Shown here one piece after another: positions 1,398-20,003 of a stretch of DNA of 64,000 nt. How positions within the stretch are numbered: the stretch's first letter is position 1; each line of letters opens with the position of its first letter. Below the pieces are notes generated by a model. The model was not told the origin of the DNA, made no database searches, and was given only the letters and a program-made list of their open reading frames with translations. This stretch comes from Gemmatimonas phototrophica (GTDB lineage: Bacteria > Gemmatimonadota > Gemmatimonadetes > Gemmatimonadales > Gemmatimonadaceae): NCBI GenBank assembly GCA_945869195.1, contig CAMBNV010000001.1, positions 1-64,000 of the forward strand. Reading direction: 5' to 3'. The position numbers and the translations under genes are program-made.

Positions 1398-4300
1398 CGG
1401 ATCGCGGTGATGCGAGCGGCCTTGAGCGCATTGCTAGGAACGAACCGCCCACCGGCCTGGCCCCGCAGGTAATCCACAAGGACATCGAGGTCCACGCGAC
1501 TGAGTTCTTCCTGTACCGCGTCCGCACCGAGCGCCGCACCGTCCCCGCCCGACGCCATGAAGTCCGTCATGACCACGCGATACAGTCGGCGGTCGTCAAT
1601 GACCGACCCATCACCGAGCGTGGCGCGCCGCAAACGTGCGCCGCGAGGGCCGGCGGGGTCGAACTCGATGCGGATCCCGCTCACGTGATATCGGATACCG
1701 TTGCCTTCGACGAGGGCCTCGAGATACCGACGCAACGCCGCACCGCGAATCGAGACGGCGACCAAACGGTTGCCGAACGGTTGGATCTCGTATAGGTCAC
1801 CCCACGTCACGGTACCGGCGCGCATGTCGGTTCGAATGCCGCCATTGTTCATGACGCCAATGTCCCCTCGGCCGACGATGCGCTGCGCGTCGGCAATGAG
1901 GTTACCGAGCGCGTACTGCGAGCCCTCGCGCGGCAGCCGCTCCGACAGCGCGACGACCGGCGTGTTGATGCGGTCGGCGACGGCCGCCTCGGCCCGCCGC
2001 ACGAGCTGGGCCACCACAGGGTCCGGCGTGATACTGTCGCTCGTGACCGTGCGAATCTCGGGACGTGTCGGCTGCGTACCTGGCGCACCCACCGCAATGT
2101 CGATCACGCCGAGGGAACGCGCACTCGACCGCGCCTGCACGATCGGAATGCCATTCACCACAGTGCCGATCGGCGAGTGCGTATGTCCACTGACGATCGC
2201 GTCCACCTCACCCGGCGCAAGCGCGGTCGCAATCGCAATGATGTCGCCATCGCATTTATCGGGATCATCTCGGTCGCAAAAGCCGCCGATGTGTGCCACC
2301 ACGACCACCGCCTCGGCGCCGCGCGCGCGGAGGGCCTTGGCCCGCGCGCGGATCACGGGTACTGGCGCCACAAAGCGGAGGTCGGCGACGTGCTTTGGCA
2401 TCGTCGTGCGGGGCGTCGCCTCATCCGCCAGCCCGATCACCCCCACCTTCATACCCTCCACCACGAGCAGCGTATCGTCAGGAATCCATGGCACGTCACG
2501 CCCATCGGCGTAGGTCACGTTGGCCCCAAGGATCGGCGCACCGAACTCGCGCATCCGGGTCCGCAGCGTGTCCTGACCCCAGTCGAACTCGTGATTACCC
2601 AGGGCGCCGGCCCGAACACCGAACGCATGAAAGATGTCGATCGCGGTCCGCCCGAAGGCGAGGTTCGACGCGGGGGTGCCTTGAAAGAGGTCACCGCCGT
2701 GCAACACCACCGAGACACACGCAGGCTGACACTCGGTGCGGGCTCGCGCGATCATCGCCGCGAGCTCTGCAGCGCCGCCGCGATTTCCCGCGGTGCCGTC
2801 GGGCCGTTTGGAGAAGGCCCCATGGAAGTCATTGAACGCGATCACCCGCAGCGAACGCCGCGGCGGCAAGAGCCGCCAGTTATCCACAAACACAGCTTCC
2901 GGCACGAGCTGTCCGACGCGGCGGACCTCGGCCACGAGGAGTTCACGGATCTCCATCGGCGACTCAAACACCACCGGCGCGCCGACGAGCATCGAATAGC
3001 CGCCCGCACCGCCAGCTCGGTAGTTGTTCACCGCGACGGTGAAGCTGTCGTGGTCGGCAATCGGTCGGCCACGATAACGAAGCCCGACGATCCGCGCGCC
3101 CATTGGTCGCGACAAATCAATCGCATACTCAGCGCCGGCGATGATGTCGTAGTTGTAGCCCGGGATACTCGCATCGGTCCGCGTGCGCTGCCCACCGCGT
3201 CCGTCAGGTTCCACGACGAAGTAGCGCGCGCTGTGCTCGAGAAAGGCGCGCACCTGCGCGCCACTCAGGCGCACGACGCGCAACGTGTTCTCGTACGGGT
3301 AGAGCTGCGCGATCTGCGCGACGGTGATCGGCCCTGGTGCGAGCGCGGCGTCGAGGGTGAACGCCGAGGCGATGCTCAAGTCGGCACCGGTCGCCTTCAA
3401 CTGCACCGCCTGAATGAGATCGATCAGCGCCATATCGCGTGTCCGGGCCGAGTCGCTGCGCCAGGCGACATCGGTACGCCCGATGACCTCGGTCGAGTAG
3501 CGGACGGCGGCGGCGTGAGCCCGCGCGACGACACTGACCACCGCCGGCGACTCGACGCGCCCACGTACCGGCACCACCGTGCCACGTTTCGTGGAGACGG
3601 TCCACTTCCCGCCCAACTTCTTCATGGAAAGCGTCGCGACGGCGACGCTCGTCGCCCAATTCCGCGGCTGCATGACCAGCACCCCATTAATCGACGTGTC
3701 GGCGACTTCACGGTGCGAGTGTCCGAAGACGATCAGGTCGACCCCGGGCACGTCGCGCGCCACGCGTGCGATCACATTCTCGCTCGCGAACCCGCTCGAC
3801 ACCGTGTCATATGAGGACTCGCCGTCGAGACCTGAATGCGCCACGACGACGACCAGATCGGCCCCGTCGCGACGTGCGGCAGCCACCTTAGCGGGCAGCG
3901 CCGCAACGATGTCGGTCAGGCGCAACCGACCGCGCAGATGATCGCGATCCCAGACCATCGCCCCCGGCGTGGTCACCCCGATGATCGCCACCTTCACACC
4001 AGCACGCGTGACCTGCTTCACTGCCTCATACGTTCGTCCGCCGTCGAGCCGCACGGAGTTGGCCGAAAGAAAGGGGAAGCGAGCCTGCTCGGCCGCGCGG
4101 TCCAGCAGGCTTAGCCCGTAGTTGAACTCATGATTGCCGACCGCAGCCGCGTCGTAGCGCATCGTATTCATTGCGGCGATCACCGGATGCGGGGCCAGCG
4201 AGTCGATCCGCCCGGCGACGAACGTCATGGGATTGCCCTGCAGCAGGTCGCCCGCATCCACGAGAATCACGCGGCCGGGGTTGCTGGCTCGCAGCGAGTC

Positions 4301-4498
4301 GAGAATGGTCGCCGCGCGCGCGAGCCCGCGGGCCGGATCGTCTGCATTAGCGTAGTAGTCCCAACCCCGCAGACGGCCATGGACGTCAGTGGTTGCGGCG
4401 ATCTTCAACTCGACCGACTCCTGTGCTTCAAGCCGGAGGGCCAGGAGGGGGAGCAGAGCGAGTGAGACGATCGGGAGGAGCCGGCGGGTCGTTGGCAT
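1394..4498 (-). CDS. Secreted tandem two-domain 5'-nucleotidase / cyclic phosphodiesterase
   Basis: An exported enzyme carrying two complete UshA/CpdB-like units in one 1034-residue chain. The ATG at 4498 is preferred over upstream in-frame starts because it gives a clean signal peptide (MPTTRRLLPIVSLALL, cut near LEAQ). Unit 1 has TTDVHGRL (Asp38, His40), DAGDLLQGNP, GNHEFNYG and FGHSHREV, then a 5'-nucleotidase C-terminal domain. Unit 2 begins near residue 550 with FNDFHGAFS, HGGDLFQGTP, GNHEFDWG, SGHTHSP and a second C-terminal domain including NNGGIRTDMRAG. Each unit should bind two metals and hydrolyse nucleotides or 2',3'-cyclic nucleotides outside the cytoplasm. Family members normally have one unit. 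It heads the purine operon and overlaps the next gene by ATGA. Substrate split between the units is unknown. Confidence 0.92.
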   Translation of the reverse strand: MPTTRRLLPIVSLALLPLLALRLEAQESVELKIAATTDVHGRLRGWDYYANADDPARGLARAATILDSLRASNPGRVILVDAGDLLQGNPMTFVAGRIDSLAPHPVIAAMNTMRYDAAAVGNHEFNYGLSLLDRAAEQARFPFLSANSVRLDGGRTYEAVKQVTRAGVKVAIIGVTTPGAMVWDRDHLRGRLRLTDIVAALPAKVAAARRDGADLVVVVAHSGLDGESSYDTVSSGFASENVIARVARDVPGVDLIVFGHSHREVADTSINGVLVMQPRNWATSVAVATLSMKKLGGKWTVSTKRGTVVPVRGRVESPAVVSVVARAHAAAVRYSTEVIGRTDVAWRSDSARTRDMALIDLIQAVQLKATGADLSIASAFTLDAALAPGPITVAQIAQLYPYENTLRVVRLSGAQVRAFLEHSARYFVVEPDGRGGQRTRTDASIPGYNYDIIAGAEYAIDLSRPMGARIVGLRYRGRPIADHDSFTVAVNNYRAGGAGGYSMLVGAPVVFESPMEIRELLVAEVRRVGQLVPEAVFVDNWRLLPPRRSLRVIAFNDFHGAFSKRPDGTAGNRGGAAELAAMIARARTECQPACVSVVLHGGDLFQGTPASNLAFGRTAIDIFHAFGVRAGALGNHEFDWGQDTLRTRMREFGAPILGANVTYADGRDVPWIPDDTLLVVEGMKVGVIGLADEATPRTTMPKHVADLRFVAPVPVIRARAKALRARGAEAVVVVAHIGGFCDRDDPDKCDGDIIAIATALAPGEVDAIVSGHTHSPIGTVVNGIPIVQARSSARSLGVIDIAVGAPGTQPTRPEIRTVTSDSITPDPVVAQLVRRAEAAVADRINTPVVALSERLPREGSQYALGNLIADAQRIVGRGDIGVMNNGGIRTDMRAGTVTWGDLYEIQPFGNRLVAVSIRGAALRRYLEALVEGNGIRYHVSGIRIEFDPAGPRGARLRRATLGDGSVIDDRRLYRVVMTDFMASGGDGAALGADAVQEELSRVDLDVLVDYLRGQAGGRFVPSNALKAARITAIR

Positions 4499-4674
4499 CA
4501 GGCAAGCTAGCGCCATTCGGCCGGCAATAACGAGGGTGGGCGGTTGACGGCCTCCGTGGCCCCCCCCCAACTTCCAGCCGCGCGCCGATACACGACCGTG
4601 ACGGCTTCGGGACTGCACGGTAGGCTTTTCGCCAGGCATCTTTATTCCGTGCCCCATCCTCGCTCCGCCTCACT
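4499..4674. promoter_or_regulatory. Divergent intergenic region with a 9-C tract
   Basis: A 176-base region between the divergent nucleotidase operon and uridine kinase; promoters for both must lie here or just inside the genes. The only striking feature is an uninterrupted run of nine C at 4560-4568. I could not identify convincing -33/-7 or -35/-10 pairs on either strand. Confidence 0.35.
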
Positions 4675-5301
4675 GTGAAACCGCTGATCATTGGCATCGC
4701 CGGGGGCACCGGCTCTGGCAAGTCGACCGTTGCGCAGCGCGTGGCAGACACTCTGCGACCGGCGCAGGCGGCGTTCATCGACATGGACGCCTATTATCGC
4801 GATCATAGCCACCTCGCGTTCGAAGAACGGCGACAGGTGAACTGGGACCATCCCGACGTCTTCGACACCGGGCTGCTCGCGGAGCACCTCGAGGCGCTCC
4901 GGCGCGGCGAAGCGATCCAGAAGCCTGTGTACGATTTCGTGACCCATGCGCGCGCACGAGAGAGCGTACGGATCGAGCCGGCCGAGGTCATCGTGATTGA
5001 CGGCATCCTGCTGTTGGTCGACGAGCGCGTCCGGCGCTTCTGCGACGTGAAGGTTTTCGTCGACACCGACGCCGACATTCGGCTGATCCGCCGCATCCGG
5101 CGCGACATGGCCGTGCGCGGACGCCCGCTCGAGGAGATCCTCGATCAATATCTCAACACCGTGCAACCGATGCACCTCCAGTTCGTCGAGCCAAGCAAGC
5201 GGTACGCCGACGTCATCATCCCGCGGGGCGGCGAGAACACGGTCGCGATCGACCTCCTCTTGGCGTCAATCCCACGACGACTCGACGGGACTCGGGCATG
5301 A
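4675..5301 (+). CDS. udk: Uridine kinase
   Basis: Phosphorylates uridine and cytidine to UMP and CMP with ATP or GTP (pyrimidine salvage, cytoplasm). The 208-residue protein has a P-loop near its start (GIAGGTGSGKST), the nucleoside-binding segment MDAYYRDHSHL, NWDHPDVFD, a VIDGILLL strand and the lid region RRIRRDMAVRGR, all typical of Udk. Length matches the family. The start is GTG at 4675; no earlier start is compatible with the P-loop position. Its stop overlaps the ATG of the response regulator (ATGA at 5298-5301), so it is co-transcribed with the PhoBR-like pair, although no direct functional link is evident. Confidence 0.93.
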   Translation: MKPLIIGIAGGTGSGKSTVAQRVADTLRPAQAAFIDMDAYYRDHSHLAFEERRQVNWDHPDVFDTGLLAEHLEALRRGEAIQKPVYDFVTHARARESVRIEPAEVIVIDGILLLVDERVRRFCDVKVFVDTDADIRLIRRIRRDMAVRGRPLEEILDQYLNTVQPMHLQFVEPSKRYADVIIPRGGENTVAIDLLLASIPRRLDGTRA

Positions 5302-6014
5302 CGGCACCCGCCGCGGGGGGCGAGCGTATCCTTGTGGTCGACGACGAGCCAGACATCGTGGCGCTCGTGGTCTATCATCTCGCGAAATCGGGCTACAGAG
5401 TCTCGTCGGCCTCGTCAGGGTCCGATGCGCTTGCGACCGCCAGGCGCGAGCGGCCGTCCCTCATCGTGCTCGACCTCATGCTCCCCGGGATGTCCGGCTT
5501 TGAGGTGCTCGAAAAACTGCGCTACGACGAGTCGACGGCAGGGATCGCGGTGCTGATGCTTACGGCCCGCAAGGAAGAGCCCGACCGCATTCGCGGCCTC
5601 GAGCTTGGCGCCGACGATTATCTGACGAAGCCCTTCAGTCCGCAGGAGCTCGTGCTTCGCGTCGCCGCGATCCTCCGTCGCGTCGCGACCGGCGGCGAGG
5701 TGAAAGACATCCTCACCATCGGCCCTATTCGCGTGGACCGCTCGGGCCACCGCGTCACGGTCAACGACCTTGAGGTTGAGCTCACACCCACGGAATACAA
5801 GCTGCTCATGACGTTGGCCGATCGACGCGGACGGGTGCAGGCGCGCGCGCAGCTGCTCGAGACCGTCTGGGACGCCGCGCCCGACGTCCAGACGCGGACC
5901 GTCGACATGCACATCCAACGTCTGCGCACCAAACTGTACCCCGCGGGCGACCTGATCGAGACGGTCCGCGGGTTCGGCTACCGATTGCAAATCCCAAGCA
6001 CTCGAGAGGGCTGA
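5298..6014 (+). CDS. phoB: OmpR/PhoB-family response regulator
   Basis: A 238-residue two-component regulator. The receiver domain (about 10-125) has the acidic pair Asp15/Asp16, phospho-acceptor Asp59 in LIVLDLMLPGMSG, the Thr of LMLTAR and the Lys of YLTKPF. A winged-helix DNA-binding domain (about 140-235) carries ELTPTEYKLL and the recognition region TRTVDMHIQRLRTKL, ending in RGFGYRL. It sits eight bases ahead of a PhoR-like kinase. The PhoB assignment is supported by the TARKEEPDRI-type receiver, the kinase partner, and the ppx, ppk and pit genes nearby; another OmpR-class role cannot be excluded from sequence alone. Confidence 0.85.
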   Translation: MTAPAAGGERILVVDDEPDIVALVVYHLAKSGYRVSSASSGSDALATARRERPSLIVLDLMLPGMSGFEVLEKLRYDESTAGIAVLMLTARKEEPDRIRGLELGADDYLTKPFSPQELVLRVAAILRRVATGGEVKDILTIGPIRVDRSGHRVTVNDLEVELTPTEYKLLMTLADRRGRVQARAQLLETVWDAAPDVQTRTVDMHIQRLRTKLYPAGDLIETVRGFGYRLQIPSTREG

Positions 6015-6021
6015 GGCCACC

Positions 6022-7740
6022 GTGCGCCTCACCCAACGACTCCTCCTCGGCGCCCTTCTCGTGGTTGGGTTTCTCTCGGTCTTCATCGTGACGATGGTGG
6101 ACCGTCAGCTCGACGAGCGACTGCACGAGGACGCCAAGGACTTCTTGGCACGCGAGGCGAGACTCGTCGGTGCGGCCTGGCAACGGGACTCGCGCTTTTC
6201 CGACTCACTCGCTGATCGCAGCGGCGCGGCAATTGGTCGGCGCGTGACACTCGTCCGACCAGACGGCGTCGTGATCGGTGACTCCGAGTTCAACGACGCC
6301 GGCCTCACGGCGCTGCAGAATCATTCAATGCGGCCCGAGGTCGCCACCGCACTGGGCGGCGCCGTCGGTACCTCGCGTCGGCCCTCGCCCTCCACCGGCG
6401 ACGTGGAGTTATACGTCGCCGTTCCTGTCGAGGGACTCGGCGTCGCCCGCGTTTCGCTCCCCACGGCGGGCCTTGACGCGGTCATTGACGCCGCGCGGCG
6501 CGAGGTGGCGACTGCGGCGCTGCTCGCGCTACTCGGCGCCCTGGTGATTGCATTCTTTTTCTCGCGGTCGGTCTCGCGTCCCATCGAGGAGCTGCGCGAC
6601 GTCGCGCGTGCCCTCGCGGACGGCGACCTCGCGCGACGCCCAACTCTGCGGGCACCCGGTGAGGTGGGCGAGGTCGCCGTCGCACTCCGCCAGCTCGCCG
6701 AGCAGCTCACCGCCCGCCTCCGCGCACGCGAGGCCGATGAGACCCTCTTGCTGCAACTCACCGAATCGTTGCACGAAGGGGTGATCGCGGTCGACATCGC
6801 GCAACAGGTCGTTCGCATCAACGAGACCGCGCGCCGACTGCTCGGGATGACCGGGGCGCTCCCCTTCCCGATGGATCAGCTGCCGCGCGACGTCGTGCTC
6901 CGGGATGCGCTGCTGGCGGCATTCACTGGCGAAACTACCGCGGACACCGAGCTCGTCATTTCAGGCCGCACGCTCAATGTCACAGCACGACCGCTGCACG
7001 ACGGTGGCGCCGTCCTCGCGTTGTTTGACCTCACGCGACTCCGGCGGCTCGAGGCCGTACGCCGCGACTTCGTCGCCAATGTTTCGCACGAACTCCGAAC
7101 GCCACTCACGGTCGTCAGCGGGTTTGCAGAGACGCTCGCCAGCGAGGACGTGCCCTACGACGCCCGCCGCAGCTTTGCTGAGCGCATCCTCGGGAACACG
7201 CGTCGCATGCAACGCCTTGTCGATGAGCTGCTCGACCTCTCGCGGATCGAGTCCGGCGGCTGGATCCCCAATCCCCAACCGGTGGCAGTCCCGGACGTCG
7301 CTAACGAGGTCATCTCCGCCGTGCACGATGCGGGGACGCAGAAGGGTCTCGCCCTGATCGCTGAGATCGCGCCGGAGGCCGCCGTGCTGTTCGCCGATCC
7401 GACCGCCCTGCGTCAGGTCCTCGGAAATCTCGTGGACAATGCGATGCGCCACACCTCGGCCGGGGAGGTCGTGCTGTTTGCTCGGCGACAGGAGGGGGGC
7501 GTACTGGTCGGCGTCCGCGATACCGGCATCGGGATCGCCGCCGAGCATCTGCCGCGCATTTTCGAACGATTCTATCGCGTCGACGCAAGTCGCTCGAGGG
7601 ATCAGGGTGGCACCGGTCTTGGCCTCGCGATCGTGAAGCACCTGGTGGAAGCGCACGGGGGCCGTGTGCGCTCGGCGAGCGTGTTGGCGCGCGGCACGGA
7701 GATCACCGCGTATTTCCCCGATCGAGAGGTCCGCCCCTAA
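6022..7740 (+). CDS. phoR: PhoR-like sensor histidine kinase
   Basis: A 572-residue inner-membrane kinase, GTG start at 6022. Order: transmembrane helix (about 7-26), an extracytoplasmic sensor region (27-160), a second helix rich in Ala/Leu/Phe (about 161-181), HAMP (182-235), a short PAS-like region (240-340), dimerisation/phospho-acceptor domain with His356 in VANVSHELRTPL, and an ATPase domain with N box (LGNLVDNAMRHT), G1 (VGVRDTGIGI), F box (FERFYRVD) and G2 (GGTGLGLAIVKHL). Architecture matches PhoR/ResE-type kinases. It is the probable partner of the regulator upstream. A periplasmic sensor is larger than in enteric PhoR, which instead relies on Pst/PhoU; this is of interest because phoU is broken nearby. 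Confidence 0.87.
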   Translation: MRLTQRLLLGALLVVGFLSVFIVTMVDRQLDERLHEDAKDFLAREARLVGAAWQRDSRFSDSLADRSGAAIGRRVTLVRPDGVVIGDSEFNDAGLTALQNHSMRPEVATALGGAVGTSRRPSPSTGDVELYVAVPVEGLGVARVSLPTAGLDAVIDAARREVATAALLALLGALVIAFFFSRSVSRPIEELRDVARALADGDLARRPTLRAPGEVGEVAVALRQLAEQLTARLRAREADETLLLQLTESLHEGVIAVDIAQQVVRINETARRLLGMTGALPFPMDQLPRDVVLRDALLAAFTGETTADTELVISGRTLNVTARPLHDGGAVLALFDLTRLRRLEAVRRDFVANVSHELRTPLTVVSGFAETLASEDVPYDARRSFAERILGNTRRMQRLVDELLDLSRIESGGWIPNPQPVAVPDVANEVISAVHDAGTQKGLALIAEIAPEAAVLFADPTALRQVLGNLVDNAMRHTSAGEVVLFARRQEGGVLVGVRDTGIGIAAEHLPRIFERFYRVDASRSRDQGGTGLGLAIVKHLVEAHGGRVRSASVLARGTEITAYFPDREVRP

Positions 7741-7885
7741 GTCGCGGCTGGCGGGGGCTCCCAACGGACCCGTTACGCGACTGTTGCAAAGCCGTGGGGT
7801 GCCCGGTACCGGCTCAGGGGAAGTTTGATCTGTTCGACGGGCCCGTCCCGCCGAGCCCCAACCCATCAAACACCACGAGACGCCC

Positions 7886-10666
7886 ATGCGCCTTGTATCC
7901 AAGACGCTCCTGATCCTCAGCCTCACGCCGCTGGCACTCGCCGGCGCGCAGGCGCCCACGGCCGGCCGCATTGTCGGCCGCATCGTCGGACGGGTGCTCG
8001 ACGCCACCTCCGGCGCTGGACTCACCGATGCCGGCGTGCAGGTGGTTGGTACGACCATCGGCACGTCCTCCGGCGTGGACGGACACTTCACGATCACTGC
8101 TGCCCCTGCGGGCACCGTGACGATTCTCGTGCGTCGCATTGGCTACGCCCCAAAGACGATCACCGGGCTGGTCATCGACGCCGGCAAGTCGCTGCAGCAG
8201 AATGTGTCGCTCGCCGCGGCGAGCGTGCAGCTCACCGCACAGGTCGTCACGGCTGAATCGGAGAGAGGATCAGTAAGCGAGGCGCTCAACACGCAGAAAA
8301 ACTCACTCAACGTGGTCAGCAGCATTACCGCCGAACAGATCGCCAAGAGCCCTGACGGCGACGCCGCGCAGGCCGTCGGACGGGTGAGTGGCGTAAGTGT
8401 GATGGACGGCAAATATGTCTTTGTCCGTGGACTGGGCGACCGCTACACCCAGACGTCGCTCAACGGCGCGCGCATCCCAAGCCCGGAACCCGAAAAGAAA
8501 GTGGTCCCGCTCGACCTCTTCCCCACCGGACTGCTGCAGACGATCACCTCGATAAAGACCTTCACGCCCGACCAGCCGGGGGACTTCGCCGGCGCGACGG
8601 TCGACATCAAGACCCGCGAATTCCCCGCCGAACGCATCTGGACGATGAGCACCAGCACTGGTTCGTCCGACGCCGTGCTTGGCCGCAGTATCATCCTGCC
8701 GACACGACTGAGCGGCGACCTGTTCGCCAGCGGGGCTGGTGCCCGCCCGCTTCCCCGATTCATCCAACAGTTCGGCAACTTCGCAAACTCCTTCCCGGGG
8801 CAGAACGACTACAACCGGATGGTCTCGGAGTTTCGCAACTCGTGGTCGCCGCGTGGGCAGGAGGGCCGACTCAACGGCGCGACATCACTCTCCGTCGGCG
8901 GTGACGACCCCGTCCTCGGTCAGCGCATTGGCTACCTCGTCTCGGGCACCTACTCGTACACGCAGGAAGCCAAGCTGGACCAGGTACGTGCGCTCGCCCT
9001 CGCGCAGTCGGGAAGCACTCCGTCCGAGGTCGATCGCTTCGAAGGCAACACCGGCCGCTCGAGCGTTCTCTGGGGCGGCCTGGCAAACTTCAGCACCCTC
9101 GTTGGCTCGCGCACCCGCATCGCATTCAATAATACCTACAACCGCAGCATGGACTCCGAGGCACGCAGCGAGCACGGCCTCTCAGAGAACCTCGGCATTC
9201 CGTTTACGATCGCGCGCCAGAAGTACGTCGAGCGCTCGGTCCGCTCCACGCAACTGCTCCTCCAGGCGGACCTGACGGCAAACCAGAAGCTCGAGGTCTC
9301 GCTCAACGTCTCCGGGGTCTCACGCGCCGAGCCCGACCGCTCCGAGTTCGTGCAAGCGATCTTCACCGACCCCGTCACCGGGGCCGCGATGGCACCGCAG
9401 TGGTTCTCGTCCTCCAACGAAGCCGCGGTCCGCAGCTTCAGCAACCTCACCGAAGACGCGTGGGAAGCCCGCGGACACTACCGCCTGCAGTTTGGCGTCG
9501 CCGGGCAGACGTTGGCGATCAAAGTCGGTGGCCTCGGACGTCGCGCCACGCGTGATGCGAATAGCTCGTCTTTCAGCATCAATGCGTCGGGGATCACGCA
9601 GTCCGTCCGCGAGCTCTCGGCCGAGCGCATCTTCGACGGCCGCTTCACGGCGCCGGGCGACAATGTCTGGCGGGTCACGCCAATCGGCGTCGGCGGTGCG
9701 TACACCGCGTCGGACTACCTCGCGGCCGGCTTCGCGATGGTCGAGAAGGAGTTCGGGCCGCGTTGGCAGCTCGTCACCGGCGCGCGCGCCGAATACAGCG
9801 ACGTCCTCGTGACGGCGCAGCCGACCATCGGCGCGACGTCGTCGACCAACCCCACCTTCACCGATCTGTTGCCGGCGTTCGCGCTCACCTTCCGCCCGAG
9901 CGAGTCGGTCAACTTCCGGCTGTCGGCCTCACAGACCGTCTCACGCCCCGAGTACCGCGAGCTCGCGCCGATCCAGTACCGGGAGGTCATGGGTTTTGAC
10001 AACGTGCTCGGCAATGCCGATCTCAGACGCGCCCTCATTCAGAACTACGACCTGCGCTGGGAGTGGTACCTCGGTCAGGGTGAGGTGGTGAGCATTGGCG
10101 CCTTTGCAAAGCGATTCAGCAACCCCGTTGAGCGGGTGTACCGCGGTTCGTCTGGCACCCGCATCATCACCTTCGTGAATGCCGAGGGTGCGGACAACTA
10201 TGGCATCGAGCTTGAGGGGCGCAAATCGCTCGACTTCCTCTCAGACTATCTCGCGATGTTCTCGGTGTCGGCCAATGCCACGATAATGGAGAGCCAGATC
10301 CGCCTCGGTACCCAGTCGATCGCCGTGACGAACCGGCACCGATCGATGGTCGGCCAGTCCCCGTATATGTTCAACGCGGGGCTGACCTGGACGAGTCACT
10401 CCGGCACAACGAGTGCGACCGCGCTCTACAACGTCGTCGGTGCGCGCATCACCGACGCGGGCGAGGTCCCGTTACCCGACGTCGTGGAACGCGAACGCCA
10501 CCTGGTCGACGTCTCCGTGCGCTTCCCGATTGGCGCACGCGTCACCGGTCGCGTGGACGCCAAAAACCTGTTGGACGCGCCGTACCACCTCGTCCAAGGT
10601 CCAATCACACGTGAGCGCTACCGCATGGGCCGCGGCTACTCGTTCGGCCTGAGCTGGCGCCCATAG
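7886..10666 (+). CDS. TonB-dependent outer-membrane receptor with carboxypeptidase-like N-terminal domain
   Basis: A 926-residue outer-membrane protein. Signal peptide MRLVSKTLLILSLTPLALAG, then a carboxypeptidase-regulatory-like beta domain (about 28-115: RVLDATSGAGLTDAGVQV, VDGHFTI), a plug domain (about 140-260, including DGDAAQAVGRVSGVSV, FVRGLGDRYTQTSLNG and DFAGATVDIKTREFP) and a 22-strand-type barrel ending YSFGLSWRP. This subclass is common in Bacteroidetes-related bacteria. Energy comes from TonB/ExbBD, not encoded here. It begins 145 bases after the PhoR-like gene and is followed by a beta-helix lipoprotein, suggesting an uptake pair. The ligand is unknown; phosphate compounds are a guess from position. 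No ribosome-binding site is visible before the ATG. Confidence 0.93.
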   Translation: MRLVSKTLLILSLTPLALAGAQAPTAGRIVGRIVGRVLDATSGAGLTDAGVQVVGTTIGTSSGVDGHFTITAAPAGTVTILVRRIGYAPKTITGLVIDAGKSLQQNVSLAAASVQLTAQVVTAESERGSVSEALNTQKNSLNVVSSITAEQIAKSPDGDAAQAVGRVSGVSVMDGKYVFVRGLGDRYTQTSLNGARIPSPEPEKKVVPLDLFPTGLLQTITSIKTFTPDQPGDFAGATVDIKTREFPAERIWTMSTSTGSSDAVLGRSIILPTRLSGDLFASGAGARPLPRFIQQFGNFANSFPGQNDYNRMVSEFRNSWSPRGQEGRLNGATSLSVGGDDPVLGQRIGYLVSGTYSYTQEAKLDQVRALALAQSGSTPSEVDRFEGNTGRSSVLWGGLANFSTLVGSRTRIAFNNTYNRSMDSEARSEHGLSENLGIPFTIARQKYVERSVRSTQLLLQADLTANQKLEVSLNVSGVSRAEPDRSEFVQAIFTDPVTGAAMAPQWFSSSNEAAVRSFSNLTEDAWEARGHYRLQFGVAGQTLAIKVGGLGRRATRDANSSSFSINASGITQSVRELSAERIFDGRFTAPGDNVWRVTPIGVGGAYTASDYLAAGFAMVEKEFGPRWQLVTGARAEYSDVLVTAQPTIGATSSTNPTFTDLLPAFALTFRPSESVNFRLSASQTVSRPEYRELAPIQYREVMGFDNVLGNADLRRALIQNYDLRWEWYLGQGEVVSIGAFAKRFSNPVERVYRGSSGTRIITFVNAEGADNYGIELEGRKSLDFLSDYLAMFSVSANATIMESQIRLGTQSIAVTNRHRSMVGQSPYMFNAGLTWTSHSGTTSATALYNVVGARITDAGEVPLPDVVERERHLVDVSVRFPIGARVTGRVDAKNLLDAPYHLVQGPITRERYRMGRGYSFGLSWRP

Positions 10667-10708
10667 ATTCGACGATCCGCCGCTGGTAGGGCGTGACCGA
10701 GCTGTGAC

Positions 10709-10744
10709 GAGAACGCCACCGTGTGATTACACGGCGGCGTTCTC
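10709..10744 (+). terminator. Hairpin terminator after TonB receptor
   Basis: Two 15-base arms (10709-10723 and 10730-10744) pair with one mismatch around a 6-base loop (TGATTA) and are followed by a short T-rich tail. It lies 40 bases after the receptor stop codon. Confidence 0.75.
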
Positions 10745-10815
10745 TTTCACCTGTGGCGCACGGGCTCCCGTGACGCTCGCTCCTCCCTCCACGTTCTCCC
10801 CAACCGGAACTCTCC

Positions 10816-12231
10816 TTGCCCCTCCCGAACGGACGCATCCTCGCCGCAGCCACCGCCGCCCTCCTGCTCTCCGCCTGCAACGATACCGGCAGCACCGGCC
10901 CGGAACCCATCGCCCCTGGCGCTGCGGTCATCGCCTCGAACATCACCGCGAGTCGCACCCTATATAAAGACACACTCTACACACTCCAGGGTTTCGTGCA
11001 GGTGACAAACGGCGCGACGCTCACCATCCAGGCCGGCACGGTGATCCAGGGCGACTTCGCGACCGTCGGCTCCTCGCTGTTCATCACACGCGGTGCGAAA
11101 ATCAGTGCGATCGGCACCGCGACCGCGCCAATCGTGTTCACCTCGTCGCGGCCCGTCGGTCAGCGTCAGGCGGGTGACTGGGGCGGTCTCATCATCATCG
11201 GCAATGGCATCGTCAACCGCGCGGCGCCGGTGATCCTCGAAGGTACCGGCACCGGGGCGTCGAACCCAGCGCAGGAATACAGCGGCGGCACGAACAACGC
11301 CGACAACAGCGGGACGCTCCGCTACGTCCGCGTCGAGTTCGCGGGCTACGCCACCGCGACGGACGCCGAGCTCAACAGCTTCACCTTTGCCGCCGTCGGT
11401 AGTGGCACCACCCTCGAGTACCTCGAGGCACTCTACGGTCTCGACGACTCCTTTGAGTTTTTCGGTGGCGCCGTGGACGGCAAGTACTTCGTCTCGTACG
11501 AGGCGGGTGACGACCACTTCGACATGTCCGAGGGCTATCGGGGTCGCCTGCAGTTCCTGATCGGCTATCAGAGTGCGAAGGTCGTGGTCCGGCCCGGCGC
11601 CGGCAACGCGTCGAGCGATCCGCAGGGGATCGAGAACGACGGCTGCAACGGCACGGGCTGCACCACCGGCCAGAACTCCACCCCCTATACCACGCCGGTC
11701 GTTGCCAACTTCACGATCGTCGGCACCGGCACCGGCACTGACATCGACCCGACGTCGGGCGGCTACGGTGCGATTCTCCGCCGCGGTACCGGCGGCTACT
11801 ACGTGAACGGCATCATCGCGCGCTGGCCGAAGGGCGCCATCGGCGTCCGCGATTCGACAAGCACCAAGCTCCGTATCACCGACGGCATCTTTGACCTGCG
11901 CAACGTGCTTGTGGTCGAGAGCCCGTCGATTTTCACCGCGGCATCTGCGGGCTTTGTTCTCACCGACTCAGTCGCGCGCGGCATCGTCCGCGACGCGAGC
12001 GCCACCACGGCAAGCCTCTTCACCGGCTTCGCCATGCCCGCGACCACGCCGGCCTCGTTTGACTGGACACCCCCGACCACGTCGCCTGCGGCCACCGGTG
12101 GCCTGGCCACCTTCACCGGCAACATGGCCACCGCCGCCGGCACCGCCGTGATCGGCACTACGTACCGCGGCGCGGCCGCACCCGGTGGCACCAAGTGGTG
12201 GGCCGGCTGGACCACCTACGCAAAGAACTGA
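10816..12231 (+). CDS. Lipoprotein with beta-helix-like repeats, TonB-receptor partner
   Basis: A 471-residue exported lipoprotein of unknown function. TTG at 10816 is the only start that leaves the complete signal: ILAAATAALLLSAC, with lipobox LSAC and acylated Cys21. The rest is Thr/Gly/Asn-rich with repeated short strand-turn units (GATLTIQAGTVIQGD, GAKISAIGTATAPIVFTS, WGGLIIIGNGIV), suggesting a right-handed beta-helix or solenoid. Asp-rich patches such as AGDDHFDMSEGYRG may bind calcium or ligand. A cysteine pair in DGCNGTGCTTG may form a disulfide. It follows the TonB receptor by 149 bases that include a terminator, so it may have its own promoter. Similar receptor-lipoprotein pairs are frequent in Bacteroidetes-like genomes. 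Substrate not identifiable. Confidence 0.85.
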   Translation: MPLPNGRILAAATAALLLSACNDTGSTGPEPIAPGAAVIASNITASRTLYKDTLYTLQGFVQVTNGATLTIQAGTVIQGDFATVGSSLFITRGAKISAIGTATAPIVFTSSRPVGQRQAGDWGGLIIIGNGIVNRAAPVILEGTGTGASNPAQEYSGGTNNADNSGTLRYVRVEFAGYATATDAELNSFTFAAVGSGTTLEYLEALYGLDDSFEFFGGAVDGKYFVSYEAGDDHFDMSEGYRGRLQFLIGYQSAKVVVRPGAGNASSDPQGIENDGCNGTGCTTGQNSTPYTTPVVANFTIVGTGTGTDIDPTSGGYGAILRRGTGGYYVNGIIARWPKGAIGVRDSTSTKLRITDGIFDLRNVLVVESPSIFTAASAGFVLTDSVARGIVRDASATTASLFTGFAMPATTPASFDWTPPTTSPAATGGLATFTGNMATAAGTAVIGTTYRGAAAPGGTKWWAGWTTYAKN

Positions 12232-12247
12232 TTCCATAGATTACGTA

Positions 12248-12280
12248 CGGGGTCGGCGTCCCACTCGGGCGCCGACCCCG
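12248..12280 (+). terminator. Hairpin terminator after beta-helix lipoprotein
   Basis: A perfect 11-bp stem (CGGGGTCGGCG at 12248-12258 with its complement at 12270-12280) and an 11-base loop, 17 bases after the stop codon. The tail is pyrimidine-rich rather than a pure T run. Confidence 0.75.
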
Positions 12281-12309
12281 TTCGCGTTCCCCCTCTCATC
12301 TTTCCAACA

Positions 12310-12957
12310 ATGCGACGCCGTCAGTCCACCTGCCTTCGAAGGATCGCGATCGGCGCGATGACACTTGTCTTGGGGGCCGCCGGCGCCTGCAGCGGATCCG
12401 AATCTGGCCGGTCGTCCTCGCGCGCCGCCGCGAGCGACCAACGGCAGGCGGGCGTCGTCGACAGCGCACTGCCGATCCCCGAACTCCTGGCGCGCTTCCG
12501 CGCCAACACCGTCGACACGCCCACCACGCTCGGCGGCAGAGCGACCTCCCCGGAACGCCTCGCGCGCGCCCTCCTCACGGGGCTCGCGCAGCGTGATACC
12601 ACCGCGGTCCGCACGCTCGTGATGTCCCGCGGCGAGTTCGCCTGGCTCTACTATCCGCACACCAAGTTCACGGCGCCGCCCTACGCACTCGGCCCGGAGC
12701 TCGTCTGGATTCCTCTCGTCGCCGCGAGCGACAAGGGCGCGGGGCGCCTCCTCGAACGGTTCGGCGGACGCACGTTGCGGTTCAAGGCGCTCGTCTGTCC
12801 CGACGCGGCGACGACGGAGGGACCCAATACCATCATCACCGGCTGTACCGTCCGATTCACCGTCGCCGACTCAGCCTCACGCGAGCTGCGACTCTTCTCG
12901 TCGTTGCTCTCCCGCGACGGCCGATACAAGTTCCTCTCGTACACGAACGATCTCTGA
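12310..12957 (+). CDS. Hypothetical exported (lipo)protein
   Basis: A 215-residue protein that I do not recognise. It starts with basic residues (MRRRQSTCLRR), a hydrophobic stretch (IAIGAMTLVLGAAGAC) and then a Ser/Gly/Arg linker, so it is exported and may be lipid-modified at Cys27, although the residue three before the Cys is Ala rather than Leu. The mature part has a helical segment followed by the motif SRGEFAWLYYPHTKFTAPPY, a Cys pair about 25 residues apart (ALVCPDAA and ITGCTVRF), and ends in a sheet-like region (SRDGRYKFLSYTNDL). The fold may be NTF2-like by feel, but that is weak. It closes the group following PhoBR and TonB receptor. Confidence 0.75.
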   Translation: MRRRQSTCLRRIAIGAMTLVLGAAGACSGSESGRSSSRAAASDQRQAGVVDSALPIPELLARFRANTVDTPTTLGGRATSPERLARALLTGLAQRDTTAVRTLVMSRGEFAWLYYPHTKFTAPPYALGPELVWIPLVAASDKGAGRLLERFGGRTLRFKALVCPDAATTEGPNTIITGCTVRFTVADSASRELRLFSSLLSRDGRYKFLSYTNDL

Positions 12958-13068
12958 TCATCCGCTGCGCGCGCGGATCGCCCCCCGACCGGACGCGATG
13001 TCAGCACCCCACTCTTCGACTTGGATTCGCGCGGTAACTGGGGACTCGTCCGGTTCCCGGGGCCTCTG

Positions 13069-14664
13069 ATGGCATCGCACGCACCGGACGGGCCCTTCCG
13101 CCCCTCGCGCGAGGACCGCGACCGCCGGATCGCCGCCATCGACATCGGCTCCAACTCTATTCGGCAGATCGTTGCCGAAGTCTTTCCAAACGGCGAGATC
13201 CGCGTCATTGACGAGATGAAAGCCGCACCGCGACTCGGTGCCGGCCTGAGTGCGACGGGCCAACTCGACGAGGCGCGCATGGACGATGCGGTCGAGGCCC
13301 TCTCCCGCATGGCCACACTCGCACTGCAGCAGGGGTGTAAACGGATCGAGGTCGTCGCCACGAGTGCGGTCCGTGACGCGTCCAACGGGCAGGTCTTCCT
13401 GACGCGCGTCCGCCGTGAGACGGGTCTCAAGCCACGCGTTCTCCGAGGCGAAGAGGAGGCACGCCTCGCGTTTCGCTCGGCCCTCGCCCACTTCGAACTC
13501 GGGCTTGGCCGTTCGATCGTGATGGACATCGGCGGCGGATCGCTCGAGCTCGCCCTCGCGGCCGACGGGCTCGTGGAGCGTTTGGCGACCTTCCCGTTCG
13601 GCGCGATTCGGCTCACGGAACAGTTCCTTGCCGGACGCACGGGCCCAAAGGGCGTGAAGAAACTCCGCAAGCACGTGCGCGCCGAGGTCAAAAAGGTGCT
13701 CCCCGTACGCGACTGGCGGGGTGCCGCCGTCATCGGCTCGGGCGGCACCTTCACGAACCTCGCGGGGATGTTCCTCGCCGAGCAGGGGATTAAGGTGCGC
13801 AACGTGCACGGTACACGGATCCCGCCGCACGAAGTCGAGCAGCTCCTCGAGATGCTCTCCCACCTCACGATCGACGAGCGGCTCCAAGTCCCGGGCCTCA
13901 ACGCCGGACGAGCCGACATTATCATCGCCGGGCTCGCGGTCGCGGCGGAGGTGCTTGCGCGCGTTGAGCCGCGTGAGTTTACGGCGTCGCGGTTCGGCAT
14001 TCGCGAGGGGCTGCTACTCGAGGCGGCGCGGGTACAGGCCGTGATCGCGGACCCCGGCGAGGCACGCGCACGCTCGGTGGTGGGTTTCGCCGAGCGTTGT
14101 CACTACGAGGTTCCCCACGCCAAACAGGTGCAGGAGCTCGCGCTTCAGCTCTTCGACGCGGTGGGTGAACGCATCGGCTGCCAGCCCGACGAGCGGGAAT
14201 CGCTCTCCGACGCGGCGCTGCTGCACGATGTCGGTTACCACATCAACTACGCAGAACACCACAAACACTCGTTCCACCTGATCATGCACGCCGACCTGCT
14301 GGGCATCCCACCCGACGAACAGGTCGTGATCGCGCACGTGGCGCGGTACCACCGCGGCGGCGAGCCGAAGCGGAAGCACACCGCCTGGGCCGAACTCGAC
14401 CCCGACTCGCGCGAGCGGGTGCGCCGCCTGAGCGCGCTGCTCAGGGTCGCCGACGGATTGGATCGCGGACACGCGGGTGCGGTTGAGCGGGTGAAGGTGC
14501 GCTGGCTCGACCGCGCGCTCCGCCTCACACCGGTGCCGCGCCGCGCCAGCGATCCCCTGCGCCTGGAGCTCTGGGGCGCAAGCCGCAAGGCGGGGCTACT
14601 GGCCGCGGTCGCCGGCGTGCCGGTCGAGATCGTCGCCCCCGACGGAACCGTCATTCAGGACTGA
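13069..14664 (+). CDS. ppx: Exopolyphosphatase / guanosine pentaphosphatase family with HD domain
   Basis: Ppx/GppA-type phosphatase that trims polyphosphate or converts pppGpp to ppGpp. With ATG at 13069 it is 531 residues; an upstream TTG at 13021 is possible but adds no conserved sequence. The ASKHA-fold N-terminal half shows the first phosphate loop (AAIDIGSNSIRQIV), RGEEEARLAF, the second loop (VMDIGGGSLEL) and a third glycine-rich loop (VIGSGGTFTNLAGM). The C-terminal part (about 350-510) is an HD-type domain with LLHDVGYHINY and later His residues (IMHADLLG, ARYHRGG), as in long Ppx enzymes. The gene lies opposite ppk, the polyphosphate synthase, and directly before a phoU fragment. 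Confidence 0.9.
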   Translation: MASHAPDGPFRPSREDRDRRIAAIDIGSNSIRQIVAEVFPNGEIRVIDEMKAAPRLGAGLSATGQLDEARMDDAVEALSRMATLALQQGCKRIEVVATSAVRDASNGQVFLTRVRRETGLKPRVLRGEEEARLAFRSALAHFELGLGRSIVMDIGGGSLELALAADGLVERLATFPFGAIRLTEQFLAGRTGPKGVKKLRKHVRAEVKKVLPVRDWRGAAVIGSGGTFTNLAGMFLAEQGIKVRNVHGTRIPPHEVEQLLEMLSHLTIDERLQVPGLNAGRADIIIAGLAVAAEVLARVEPREFTASRFGIREGLLLEAARVQAVIADPGEARARSVVGFAERCHYEVPHAKQVQELALQLFDAVGERIGCQPDERESLSDAALLHDVGYHINYAEHHKHSFHLIMHADLLGIPPDEQVVIAHVARYHRGGEPKRKHTAWAELDPDSRERVRRLSALLRVADGLDRGHAGAVERVKVRWLDRALRLTPVPRRASDPLRLELWGASRKAGLLAAVAGVPVEIVAPDGTVIQD

Positions 14665-15980: not shown

Positions 15981-18173
15981 CTAGTCGTCGACGATCGTCA
16001 CGAAGGCCGCGCTCGACGACGGCGGCTGGCCCCGCGGCATCGGGCGGACATTCGCCAGCGGGCTCACCTGTATCGGGAAGATCCCACTGTCACGGTTCGC
16101 GCCCCACGAGTCGCGCAGCAACATGCGGTGCGTCGCCCGCTCGCCGCGCTCGCCGGGGAGCCGCTGCACGTAGCTCCCGTCAGACTGCATCTCCCACGCC
16201 TGTCGATTGTCGCCGAGGCAGACATCCAGCACCGAATGCAACCGCTGCTGGAACTCCTCGCTTACGACCGGCGTGACCACCTCGACGCGGTGGTCCAAGT
16301 TGCGTGGCATCCAGTCGGCCGACCCGAAGTAGTACTCCGGCGCGTCGTCGTTGCCGAACATCCAGATCCGCGAGTGCTCCAGAAATCGGCCGATGATGCT
16401 CAGGACACGGATCCGCTCGGACAACCCCGCGACGCCAGGAACCAGGCAGCAGATGCCGCGGATGATCAGATCGACCTCCACTCCCGCCGCTGAGGCCCGA
16501 TAGAGCGCCTCGATGCATTCGGGGTCCACGAGGGCGTTCATCTTCGCGATGATCCGCCCGCGGCGCCCCGCCAAGGCGTGCGCCGCCTCGCGGTCGATCA
16601 TCCCGACCACCCGAGTACGCATGCGCGCGGGGGCGACCACGAGTCGGCGGTATTCGGCGCCGCGCGAATATCCCGTGAGCGAGTTGAAGAGGTCGCTGAT
16701 GTCCGCCGCAATCCCCTCGTCGCAGGTGAGCAACCCGATGTCGGTGTAAATGCGCGCCGTACGCGTGTTGTAGTTACCCGTCCCGATATGCACATAGCGG
16801 CGAATGCCGTCGTGCTCCCTACGGACCACCAGCGCCGTCTTCGTGTGCACCTTGAGGCCGGGCAGCCCGTAGGCCACGTGCACGCCGAACGACTCCAGCG
16901 TACGTGCCCACGCGATATTGTTGGTTTCGTCAAATCGCGCCTGTAGCTCGACCACCACCGCGACCTGTTTCCCGCGCTGCGCTGCCTGCGTGAGCGCCTG
17001 CACAATCGCGCCGTCGCCCGAGGTGCGGTACAGCGTCATCTTGATCGCGAGCACCTGATCGTCGCGCGCCGCCGTTTCAATGAACGTCTCGACCGAAGCC
17101 CCGAACGAATCGAAGGGATGATGCACCAGAATCTCGCGTTCGCGGATCACATCGAAGATCGAACGACTCGCGTCACGCAACGCCGCGGGCACCACCGAGA
17201 TCAACGGCGGGTCGCGATGCTCCGGCAGGTCAATCGACGAGAGTTGAAGGAAGTCACCGACATCGAGCAGCGGCCCCGGTTCGAGAATCTCGCGCTCTGA
17301 GAGCGGCGCCATCTCCGGGGCCTCACCCGTACGAAGTTCGTCAAGCAGCAGCTCGCGCAGGTGCAGCGGCATGCCCGTCTGCACTTCGACCCGCACCACT
17401 TCGCCGAACCGCCGCTGAAAGAGCTGCTCCTCGATCATCGCCAGCAGGTCTTCCGAGTCCTCGGTGTGCGAAATCTCCAAGTCAGAGTAACGCGTCAGGC
17501 GGAAGAGGAAGCAGGCGAGCACGGTCATGCCCGGAAACAGCGTGTCGAGCCGGGCAGTGATCACCGACTCGAGCGGCACATACGAGTGTGGCTTCCCGGT
17601 CGGCACCCAGCGCGGCAAGCTCTTGGGGACCTTGACGCGCGCAAACCGGACGGTGCCCGTCACTGGGTCGCGCAGCTCCACCGCGAGCGAGAGCGAGAGA
17701 TTGCTGATGTACGGGAACGGATGGCCGGGGTCGACGGCAAGTGGCGTCAACACCGGGTAGACGTCCGACTCAAAGTAGCGATCGATCCGGGTGCGCTCCT
17801 CACCGTCGAGCTCGTCAACCGAGACGATCCGCACGCCGACGCGCCTCAACAACGGCAAGAGCACCTCATGCAACAGGTGCCGCTGCCGCGCGATGAGCGC
17901 GCGCACCCGCTCGTCGATCAACTCGAGCTGCTCGGACGCCGTGAGGCCGTCGGACGAGGTCAGGAGTACGCCGGCAGACAGCTGCCGGCGCAGACCCGCC
18001 ACACGCACCATGTAGAACTCGTCGAGATTTGACCCGAAGATCGCGAGGAACTTCAATCGCTCGAGCAGCGGGGTGCGCTCATCCTCGGCCTCATGAAGCA
18101 CTCGCGAGTTGAACTCGAGCCAGGAGAGCTCCCGGTTCAGGAACGCGGGGTTGGTCGGCCGGAGGGTAGCCAC
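15981..18173 (-). CDS. ppk1: Polyphosphate kinase 1
   Basis: Polymerises the ATP gamma-phosphate into polyphosphate, reversibly, at the inner face of the membrane. The 730-residue length is right for PPK1. Seen: N-terminal RELSWLEFNSRVLHEAED, head domain FGSNLDEFYMVRVAG, HHPFDSF (about 355), and the autophosphorylated His near residue 461 in YVHIGTGNYNTRTARIYTD, followed by a second catalytic region (MNALVDPECIEALYRAS, IIRGICCLVPG) and ADWMPRNLDHRVE. It lies seven bases after pit, forming an operon, and faces the ppx gene across acr3. Polyphosphate made here would store phosphate brought in by Pit. An unusual basic/proline tail (RPMPRGQPPSSS) follows the last conserved block. Confidence 0.96.
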   Translation of the reverse strand: MATLRPTNPAFLNRELSWLEFNSRVLHEAEDERTPLLERLKFLAIFGSNLDEFYMVRVAGLRRQLSAGVLLTSSDGLTASEQLELIDERVRALIARQRHLLHEVLLPLLRRVGVRIVSVDELDGEERTRIDRYFESDVYPVLTPLAVDPGHPFPYISNLSLSLAVELRDPVTGTVRFARVKVPKSLPRWVPTGKPHSYVPLESVITARLDTLFPGMTVLACFLFRLTRYSDLEISHTEDSEDLLAMIEEQLFQRRFGEVVRVEVQTGMPLHLRELLLDELRTGEAPEMAPLSEREILEPGPLLDVGDFLQLSSIDLPEHRDPPLISVVPAALRDASRSIFDVIREREILVHHPFDSFGASVETFIETAARDDQVLAIKMTLYRTSGDGAIVQALTQAAQRGKQVAVVVELQARFDETNNIAWARTLESFGVHVAYGLPGLKVHTKTALVVRREHDGIRRYVHIGTGNYNTRTARIYTDIGLLTCDEGIAADISDLFNSLTGYSRGAEYRRLVVAPARMRTRVVGMIDREAAHALAGRRGRIIAKMNALVDPECIEALYRASAAGVEVDLIIRGICCLVPGVAGLSERIRVLSIIGRFLEHSRIWMFGNDDAPEYYFGSADWMPRNLDHRVEVVTPVVSEEFQQRLHSVLDVCLGDNRQAWEMQSDGSYVQRLPGERGERATHRMLLRDSWGANRDSGIFPIQVSPLANVRPMPRGQPPSSSAAFVTIVDD

Positions 18174-18180
18174 GAACGCC

Positions 18181-19212
18181 TCAGCCGCGAATCGCGGCGA
18201 TGACCCAATAGCTCCCTGCGGCGACGCCGGCCGCTGCCGGGATAGTGATGACCCAGGCCCAGATCATCTGGCTCGCGACCCCCCAACGCACCGCCGAGAG
18301 CCGGTTCGTCGCGCCCACCCCGACGATCGCACCTGCGATCGTGTGCGTCGTACTCACCGGGATCCCGAGATACGTCGCCAGGAAGATCGCCGACGCGCCT
18401 CCGGTCTCGGCACAGAAGCCGCCGATCGGTCGCAGCTTCGTGACTCGCGACCCGAGCGTGTGGACAATCCGCCAGCCGCCCAAGAGCGTCCCGAGTGCGA
18501 TCGACAGGTGCGCGCCGAGCTTCACCCAGAACGGGATCTCTTCTCCCGTGCTCAGGTAGAAATGGCGCAAGAATCCGGTCTCGTTCACGAAGTAGACCTG
18601 ACCGGTCACGAGCAGCGACACGATGATGCCCATGGTCTTCTGCGCGTCGTTGGCACCGTGCGAGAGCGAGAAGAGCGCCGAGCTCGTAATCTGCATCCCG
18701 CGAAAGAGCGGCTCCACCGTCGCCCGACGCGCGTTCCGGAAGGTCCAGCTGGTGGCGACCATGAGCGCCCAGCCAGCGGTCATGCCGACGAGAGGCGAGA
18801 CCACGATAAAGATCAGCGGTTTGATCCAGCCGGAGAGGATCAGCGCGGCGAAACCCGCCTTGGCCACGGCTGCGCCGCCATACCCGCCCATGAGCGCGTG
18901 CGACGAACTCGACGGAATCCCGTACCACCAGGTAATGAGGTTCCAGGCGATTGCGCCGATCAGGCCCGCGAGAATCACATCCGGGTTCACCAACGCCAGG
19001 TTGATGAGTCCCTTGCCCATCGTTTTCGCCACGTTTGTGTCGAACACGAAGAGCGCGATGAAGTTGAAGCTCGCCGCCCAGATGACGGCGGTGAACGGAC
19101 TGAGCACCCGCGTTCCTACGATCGTGGCGATTGAATTCGCCGAGTCGTGGAAACCGTTGATGAAGTCGAAGATGAACGCGACCAGGACGACCGCGAGAAT
19201 GAACCAGACCAC
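18181..19212 (-). CDS. pit: PiT-family low-affinity phosphate transporter
   Basis: An inner-membrane phosphate:proton (or sodium) symporter. I choose GTG at 19212, three bases after the DUF47 stop, because the conserved start VVWFILAVVLVAFIFDFING then falls at the N-terminus; an upstream GTG at 19266 would overlap DUF47 by 52 bases and add a basic stretch unlike the family. From 19212 it is 343 residues. Both PiT repeats are visible: GFHDSANSIATIVGTRVLSP near the start and GIPVSTTHTIAGAIVGVG near the end, plus GGYGGAAVAKAG and a central loop. Order DUF47-pit is a standard pairing in which the DUF47 protein modulates the transporter. Confidence 0.95.
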   Translation of the reverse strand: MVWFILAVVLVAFIFDFINGFHDSANSIATIVGTRVLSPFTAVIWAASFNFIALFVFDTNVAKTMGKGLINLALVNPDVILAGLIGAIAWNLITWWYGIPSSSSHALMGGYGGAAVAKAGFAALILSGWIKPLIFIVVSPLVGMTAGWALMVATSWTFRNARRATVEPLFRGMQITSSALFSLSHGANDAQKTMGIIVSLLVTGQVYFVNETGFLRHFYLSTGEEIPFWVKLGAHLSIALGTLLGGWRIVHTLGSRVTKLRPIGGFCAETGGASAIFLATYLGIPVSTTHTIAGAIVGVGATNRLSAVRWGVASQMIWAWVITIPAAAGVAAGSYWVIAAIRG

Positions 19213-19214
19213 GG

Positions 19215-19826: not shown

Positions 19827-19932
19827 GGGGGTTGTCTCGGGCGAGGGGAGGACGGCTGCGCGGTTCCCGGAGGAGGATCGAAGAACCGAAGGGAGAAGCG
19901 AAATCAGTAACAACCGCACCTGCGTAGCACCC

Positions 19933-19965
19933 GTAAGATACCGCGCCGTGCGAGCCGCCTGCAAA
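19933..19965 (-). promoter_or_regulatory. Candidate promoter of DUF47-pit-ppk-acr3 operon
   Basis: On the minus strand TTTG (19965-19962) and TATCTTAC (19940-19933) are separated by 21 bases, resembling the Bacteroidetes-type TTTG / TAnnTTTG arrangement with two mismatches in the -7 box. The GTG start lies about 105 bases downstream. Position is plausible; sequence match is moderate. Confidence 0.4.
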
Positions 19966-20003
19966 CAGCGCTGACGGTGCCGCGACGCATCCATACAGAA
20001 CCG

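Follow-up and report, generated by a model that had tools for sequence, protein, structure and literature searches.

What do three genes for exported proteins do when they stand directly behind the phosphate regulators phoB and phoR, and do they form a system that has not been described before? This question was raised by a cassette in a 64,000-nucleotide stretch of DNA from Gemmatimonas phototrophica (assembly GCA_945869195.1, contig CAMBNV010000001.1, positions 1 to 64,000; the whole stretch is hereafter called the window), which encodes a TonB-dependent receptor, a 471-amino-acid (471-aa) lipoprotein and a small 215-aa lipoprotein. The initial annotation, made from the sequence alone, had proposed an undescribed outer-membrane uptake system, possibly for phosphate-containing ligands. 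All three genes were indeed intact and open, on one strand and downstream of phoR. From homology, predicted fold, gene linkage, co-inheritance and shared promoter repeats, we consider the cassette to be a PhoB-controlled outer-membrane phosphorus-scavenging unit of the ElpS/Cc0171 kind, with a probability of roughly 0.7.

A receptor-lipoprotein pair related to ElpS and Cc0171

ElpS (Cc0170) of Caulobacter crescentus is a surface lipoprotein of phosphate starvation with a lipobox at residues 17-20, whose gene lies beside those of the TonB receptor Cc0171 and gspC-N, and the co-occurrence of the ElpS/Cc0171 pair was noted by its authors (PMC2996285). Four Caulobacter genomes reached through a search with the S-layer protein were without a match, and a match was present in 26 of the 75 genomes of the genus. 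One 4.14-Mb Caulobacter genome (L101) carried at ~190 kb a gene for a 518-aa lipoprotein with a lipobox at residues 17-20, and behind it a TonB receptor and gspC-N, which identifies an elpS-type locus by lipobox and gene order (PMC2996285), not proven to be that of strain CB15. The same gene order was seen on a plasmid of Sphingomonas parapaucimobilis. The 471-aa protein shared 36% identity over 288 columns with the 518-aa lipoprotein (E 3e-39), and the receptor shared 25% identity over 845 columns with the receptor of the same locus (E 3e-46) and 27% identity with a Parabacteroides receptor (E 3e-90). The carboxypeptidase-type domain initially assigned to the receptor was recovered together with the Plug and TonB-barrel domains, and the receptor fell far short of the SusC/RagA type (TIGR04056, 31.8 bits versus a cut-off of 368).

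The window resembles Caulobacter in a homologous beta-helix lipoprotein, an adjacent homologous receptor and a link, predicted for the window, to phosphate starvation. By contrast, the Caulobacter order places ElpS first, followed by gspC-N, whereas in the window the receptor comes first, phoBR lies beside it and a third lipoprotein is added. No type II secretion genes were found in the annotated neighbourhood, and a search of the window's own genome for GspD gave only a secretin below the cut-off. Two Bacteroidota members that we viewed likewise lacked this adjacency, so the wider family is not defined by proximity to type II secretion genes.

In Flavobacterium johnsoniae, the PhoBR cluster PUSIV contains the receptor Fjoh_0545 and the lipoprotein FII (Fjoh_0546), which are induced by phosphate depletion with log2 fold changes of 8.0 and 9.9, respectively; Fjoh_0546 has a pectin-lyase fold and was related by the authors to the Caulobacter lipoprotein (PMC8115612). 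The window shares with PUSIV the combination of PhoBR, a receptor of the same domain types (PF07715, PF13715, PF14905) and a lipoprotein, a likeness drawn from layout and published description. It differs in organism group and in that the PUSIV protein Fjoh_0549 is assigned to PF07705, which the small lipoprotein of the window does not match. Because the window pair is homologous to the Caulobacter elpS-type locus and arranged as in the F. johnsoniae PhoBR cluster, it belongs, on these comparisons, to a described kind (PMC2996285, PMC8115612), and the proposal of an undescribed system is not supported.

The pair also follows the working plan of SusCD and of PusCD, the latter induced by low phosphate in Flavobacterium (PMC8115612), in that a TonB receptor is joined with a surface lipoprotein; it works alike and is not a member. 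Membership of SusD was rejected for the 471-aa protein, which had no SusD match in Pfam and was modelled as a beta-helix.

The ElpS/receptor pair is widespread, though the 471-aa lipoprotein fits no Pfam, NCBIfam or PDB sequence family. To our knowledge the pair has not been described from this lineage, and a literature search on TonB receptors and phosphate in Gemmatimonadota brought up nothing relevant. What is new is the occurrence of the pair in this lineage, a probable PhoB box, the small-lipoprotein family, and the retention of the cassette despite a likely loss of Pst.

The 471-aa lipoprotein is predicted to be a beta-helix with a stacked acidic site

Translation of the 471-aa protein begins at TTG, a position occupied by ATG in five aligned congeners, and the protein carries the lipobox LSAC. 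An AlphaFold2 (AF2) model built with 24 relatives in the alignment adopted a right-handed parallel beta-helix over approximately residues 35-375, with a predicted template modelling score (pTM) of 0.83 and a mean predicted local distance difference test score (pLDDT) of 76, exceeding 90 over much of residues 41-250. Residues D210, D211, E214, D232, D233, D236, E273, D275 and R322 were invariant or nearly so across 13 proteins from several phyla. The step from DDxxE to DDxxD is 22 residues, approximately one turn of the helix, so the acidic residues likely form a stacked site in the modelled fold. These results agree with the earlier description of a solenoid-like lipoprotein with acidic patches and a cysteine pair, the latter seen in this lineage only. 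Relatives in Indioceanicola and Pseudoalteromonas contained two beta-helix domains within a single protein.

Comparison with VIA-align gave Z scores of up to 23 against tailspikes, NosD, epimerases and pectate lyases, at ~10% identity, and a beta-helix fold by itself assigns no function. The lipoprotein may instead be an enzyme (a phosphoesterase, lyase or glycan hydrolase) that degrades an extracellular polymer when phosphate runs short and leaves the product for the receptor to import, a possibility that we take seriously but hold to be clearly the less probable one. It would fit the closest folds, which are mostly polysaccharide lyases, polygalacturonases, epimerases and tailspike depolymerases, and the invariant DDxxE, DDxxD and ExD motifs; moreover, overproduction of ElpS went along with higher phosphatase activity outside the cells (PMC2996285), and a polygalacturonase-like role was suggested by the Flavobacterium authors (PMC8115612). 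However, the beta-helix is a common scaffold that also serves non-enzymes, with NosD and pertactin among the matches; identity to the fold matches is ~10%, and no catalytic set was matched at the level of single residues. We prefer ligand binding by the lipoprotein within a phosphorus-scavenging unit.

Relatives of the beta-helix lipoprotein were also met in IMG/VR contigs classed as viral (126 proteins). Within the same 11 kb, 24 of the 41 such contigs checked carried a TonB receptor homolog (for example, L146, 6403-9186), and the neighbours scanned gave few phage matches; these contigs may be phages carrying the receptor/beta-helix pair or misclassified Bacteroidota DNA.

The three genes are inherited together and linked to phosphate genes

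Across 151 genomes of the order, the same set being used for all three genes, matches were found in 55 genomes for the receptor, 54 for the 471-aa protein and 53 for the 215-aa protein, with all three in 51 (Fisher P < 1e-33, a value that ignores the relatedness of the genomes). The receptor and beta-helix genes were adjacent in all 53 genomes holding both, and the small-lipoprotein gene adjoined the beta-helix gene in 50 of 51, the sole exception lying at a contig edge. The cassette was distributed patchily inside genera, in the manner of a unit that is acquired or lost as a whole. The consistent co-occurrence that the initial annotation had named as a check was thus borne out.

The gene order of the window is 5'-nucleotidase (reverse strand), udk, phoB, phoR, receptor, 471-aa gene, 215-aa gene, ppx, an SBF-family transporter gene, ppk, Pit and DUF47/PhoU-like, the names PhoB and PhoR denoting best matches below the NCBI equivalog cut-offs. 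In 20 regions of ~19 kb each from other genomes, the cassette lay behind phoB-phoR in ~14, surrounded by 5'-nucleotidase, udk, ppx, ppk and pit; the PUSIV-type layout of a receptor and an ElpS-related lipoprotein beside phoBR is met in the window and in these ~14 regions. PF12849, the family of the phosphate-binding protein PstS, was present in 135 of the 151 genomes, and in at least 13 a PF12849 gene began downstream of the small lipoprotein, co-oriented with it and no more than 400 bp away. The neighbourhood of phosphate metabolism is thus seen both in the genes of the window and in synteny with phoBR, ppx, ppk, pit or pstS, and the phosphate role first guessed is, as far as computation goes, well supported.

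TonB receptors classically carry metal complexes, and the acidic ladder of the lipoprotein would suit metals, so that the pair might import a metal or metal chelate for metallophosphatases in phosphate starvation, not a phosphorus ligand. We consider this unlikely, given the linkage to phosphorus genes and pstS and the lack of any recognised metal transport gene among the annotated neighbours. A phosphorus-containing cargo remains our preferred reading.

Promoter repeats suggest control by PhoB

Footprinting by alignment of the window with five congeners revealed 7-bp repeat blocks spaced by 11 bp in each of the two cassette gaps, the one ahead of the receptor and the one ahead of the 471-aa gene. 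An 11-bp repeat spacing is known for PhoB sites. The derived lineage motif, CYGTKRC-N4-CYGTKRC, is an 11-bp direct repeat, a copy of which (two mismatches at most) lay approximately 90 bp upstream of udk-phoB-phoR in all 14 regions examined. The motif was then tested on sequence outside its derivation set, namely other genera and pstS loci. In 14 regions from other genera, the cassette gaps made up 2.2% of the area and took 7 of 10 exact matches (P 3e-10) and 24 of 48 near-exact matches (P 3e-27), and in 30 pstS loci from independent genomes the stretch immediately before pstS, with 4.8% of the area, took 15 of 28 near-exact matches (P 3e-13); as these P values treat related genomes as independent they are too small, and the effect is large. 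Searched with the Escherichia coli Pho-box consensus, most upstream regions did not rise clearly above background, and the lineage motif was found neither before the small lipoprotein in the window nor before the Pit operon or ppk. The motif is probably the PhoB box of this lineage, with PhoB as its putative binder. Matches in the window's own genome lay in both cassette gaps and also 92 bp ahead of a second carboxypeptidase-domain outer-membrane receptor (PF13620, PF25183; C1:170810).

A model for phosphorus scavenging

Taking these observations together, we propose that when phosphate is scarce PhoB would raise the expression of udk-phoBR, the receptor gene and the beta-helix gene by binding the direct repeats that precede each of them. 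The beta-helix lipoprotein, on the outer membrane, would capture a phosphorus-containing ligand by means of its invariant acidic ladder, which probably holds metal, and hand this ligand to the TonB receptor, which would pull it into the periplasm. There, a nucleotidase/phosphatase would release phosphate, which the Pit permease would import and Ppk and Ppx would store and mobilise, with the small lipoprotein possibly serving as an accessory of the pair. Surface exposure, physical contact among the three proteins, the ligand and its transport are parts of the model that we infer, and the phosphate response of the cassette is predicted from the promoter repeats only.

Several points weigh against this model. 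The ten near-full-motif matches in the window's own genome were no more than in a backward control, so that the placement of the motif, not its number, is the evidence; binding by PhoB itself is only predicted, and expression and uptake in this lineage are likewise inferred. The cassette lay away from a strong phoBR match in 6 of the 20 regions, among which two cassettes stood beside pit(-DUF47) or ppx(-ppk) and one had pstS downstream. In Caulobacter, cc0171 was reported to be constitutive and intracellular phosphate to be unchanged (PMC2996285, data not shown there). That the genes merely share a neighbourhood, with the repeats serving another OmpR-type regulator in place of PhoB, would suit the purely computational matching and the cassettes distant from phoBR, and is nevertheless very unlikely, since the same repeat precedes udk-phoBR as well as pstS in independent genomes.

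By linking the pair to phoBR, pstS, ppk/ppx and Pit, and by adding a co-inherited third lipoprotein and a testable PhoB box, this lineage turns the passage of phosphorus across the outer membrane through TonB receptors into a directly testable question.

The cassette is kept despite a likely loss of PstSCAB

The window's own genome (2.33 Mb, 98.2% complete) contained no match to PF12849 and only a weak match to PstC, below the cut-off, and kept PhoB/PhoR and Pit. In a genome of this completeness, the lack of PF12849 makes the loss of PstSCAB likely, though short of certain. PF12849 was likewise missing from two congeners with small genomes, one of which, G122, retains the entire cassette. Without Pst, PhoR would need to sense phosphate without the Pst transporter. 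One might speculate that the receptor, beta-helix and small lipoprotein constitute a three-part outer-membrane phosphorus importer that replaces the lost PstSCAB for high-affinity acquisition in a small genome, PhoR sensing phosphate without Pst, an extension of the model that we regard as doubtful.

The small lipoprotein and the transcription units

The 215-aa protein carries the lipobox AGAC, which predicts a lipid-anchored N-terminus, and the cysteine pair C163/C179 is invariant in the alignment of its family. No significant match to the family was found in Pfam, NCBIfam or PDB/structure searches, in line with the small unrecognised lipoprotein initially described, and the family appears undescribed. 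Weak Pfam matches, confined to single members, were rejected as noise, and an AF2 model from the single sequence was useless (pLDDT 37). A further lipoprotein of the Flavobacterium PhoBR cluster could be its counterpart.

Clean terminators had been placed between the genes. This held for the two boundaries inside the cassette, where strong hairpins were predicted (Table 1), and failed at its outer ends: folding gave no hairpin after the small lipoprotein (z -0.1), and the hairpin scan listed none between phoR and the receptor. Scans for sigma-70 promoters and T-run terminators were uninformative at the G+C content of the window. The repeat just ahead of the first hairpin suggests separate starts for the receptor and the 471-aa gene, and expression of the small lipoprotein may depend on read-through or on an unrecognised promoter.

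Features of the cassette and its surroundings

Table 1 Coordinates of the cassette, its promoter repeats and hairpins, and neighbouring phosphate genes in the window
Feature	Position	Strand	Basis or remark
Exported double 5'-nucleotidase/metallophosphoesterase	1394..4657	-	PF02872 x2, PF00149 x2 (Pfam); synteny in relatives
Pho-box-like repeat CCGATAC-N4-CCGTGAC, ~90 bp before udk-phoB-phoR	4585..4602	+	One mismatch to motif
udk, uridine kinase-like gene upstream of phoB	4675..5301	+	PF00485
PhoB-type response regulator	5298..6014	+	Best NCBIfam match TIGR02154, 252 bits, cut-off 296
PhoR/PnpS-type histidine kinase	6022..7740	+	Best matches NF046044 and TIGR02966, both under cut-offs
Pho-box-like repeats CCGTTAC, CTGTTGC, CCGTGGG before receptor	7770..7798	+	11-bp spacing; kept in congeners; enriched here in other genera
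TonB-dependent receptor, N-terminal carboxypeptidase-regulatory domain, related to Cc0171	7886..10666	+	PF13715, PF07715, PF00593
Pho-box-like repeat GCGTGAC-N4-CTGTGAC before beta-helix gene	10691..10708	+	Kept in congeners; enriched in other genera
Terminator-like hairpin after receptor	10709..10744	+	-31.1 kcal/mol, z -6.8
ElpS-like beta-helix lipoprotein (471 aa), invariant acidic ladder	10816..12231	+	Homology to Caulobacter elpS-type locus; fold
Strong hairpin after beta-helix gene	12243..12287	+	-36.6 kcal/mol, z -6.2
Small lipoprotein (215 aa), family without Pfam, NCBIfam or PDB match	12310..12957	+	Beside beta-helix gene; family alignment
Exopolyphosphatase (Ppx/GppA), conserved neighbour	13021..14664	+	PF02541; synteny
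Polyphosphate kinase, conserved neighbour	15981..18173	-	PF13090, PF17941, PF02503, PF13089
Pit-type phosphate permease (PHO4) and DUF47/PhoU-like partner	18181..19994	-	PF01384, PF01865

The 5'-nucleotidase gene encodes one protein with two tandem 5'-nucleotidase units, and its true start is probably near 4498. Between ppx and ppk, an SBF-family transporter gene of the bile acid/arsenite type (14907-15959, reverse strand) occupies the same place in one relative (L076), pointing to a possible link to arsenic or anions.

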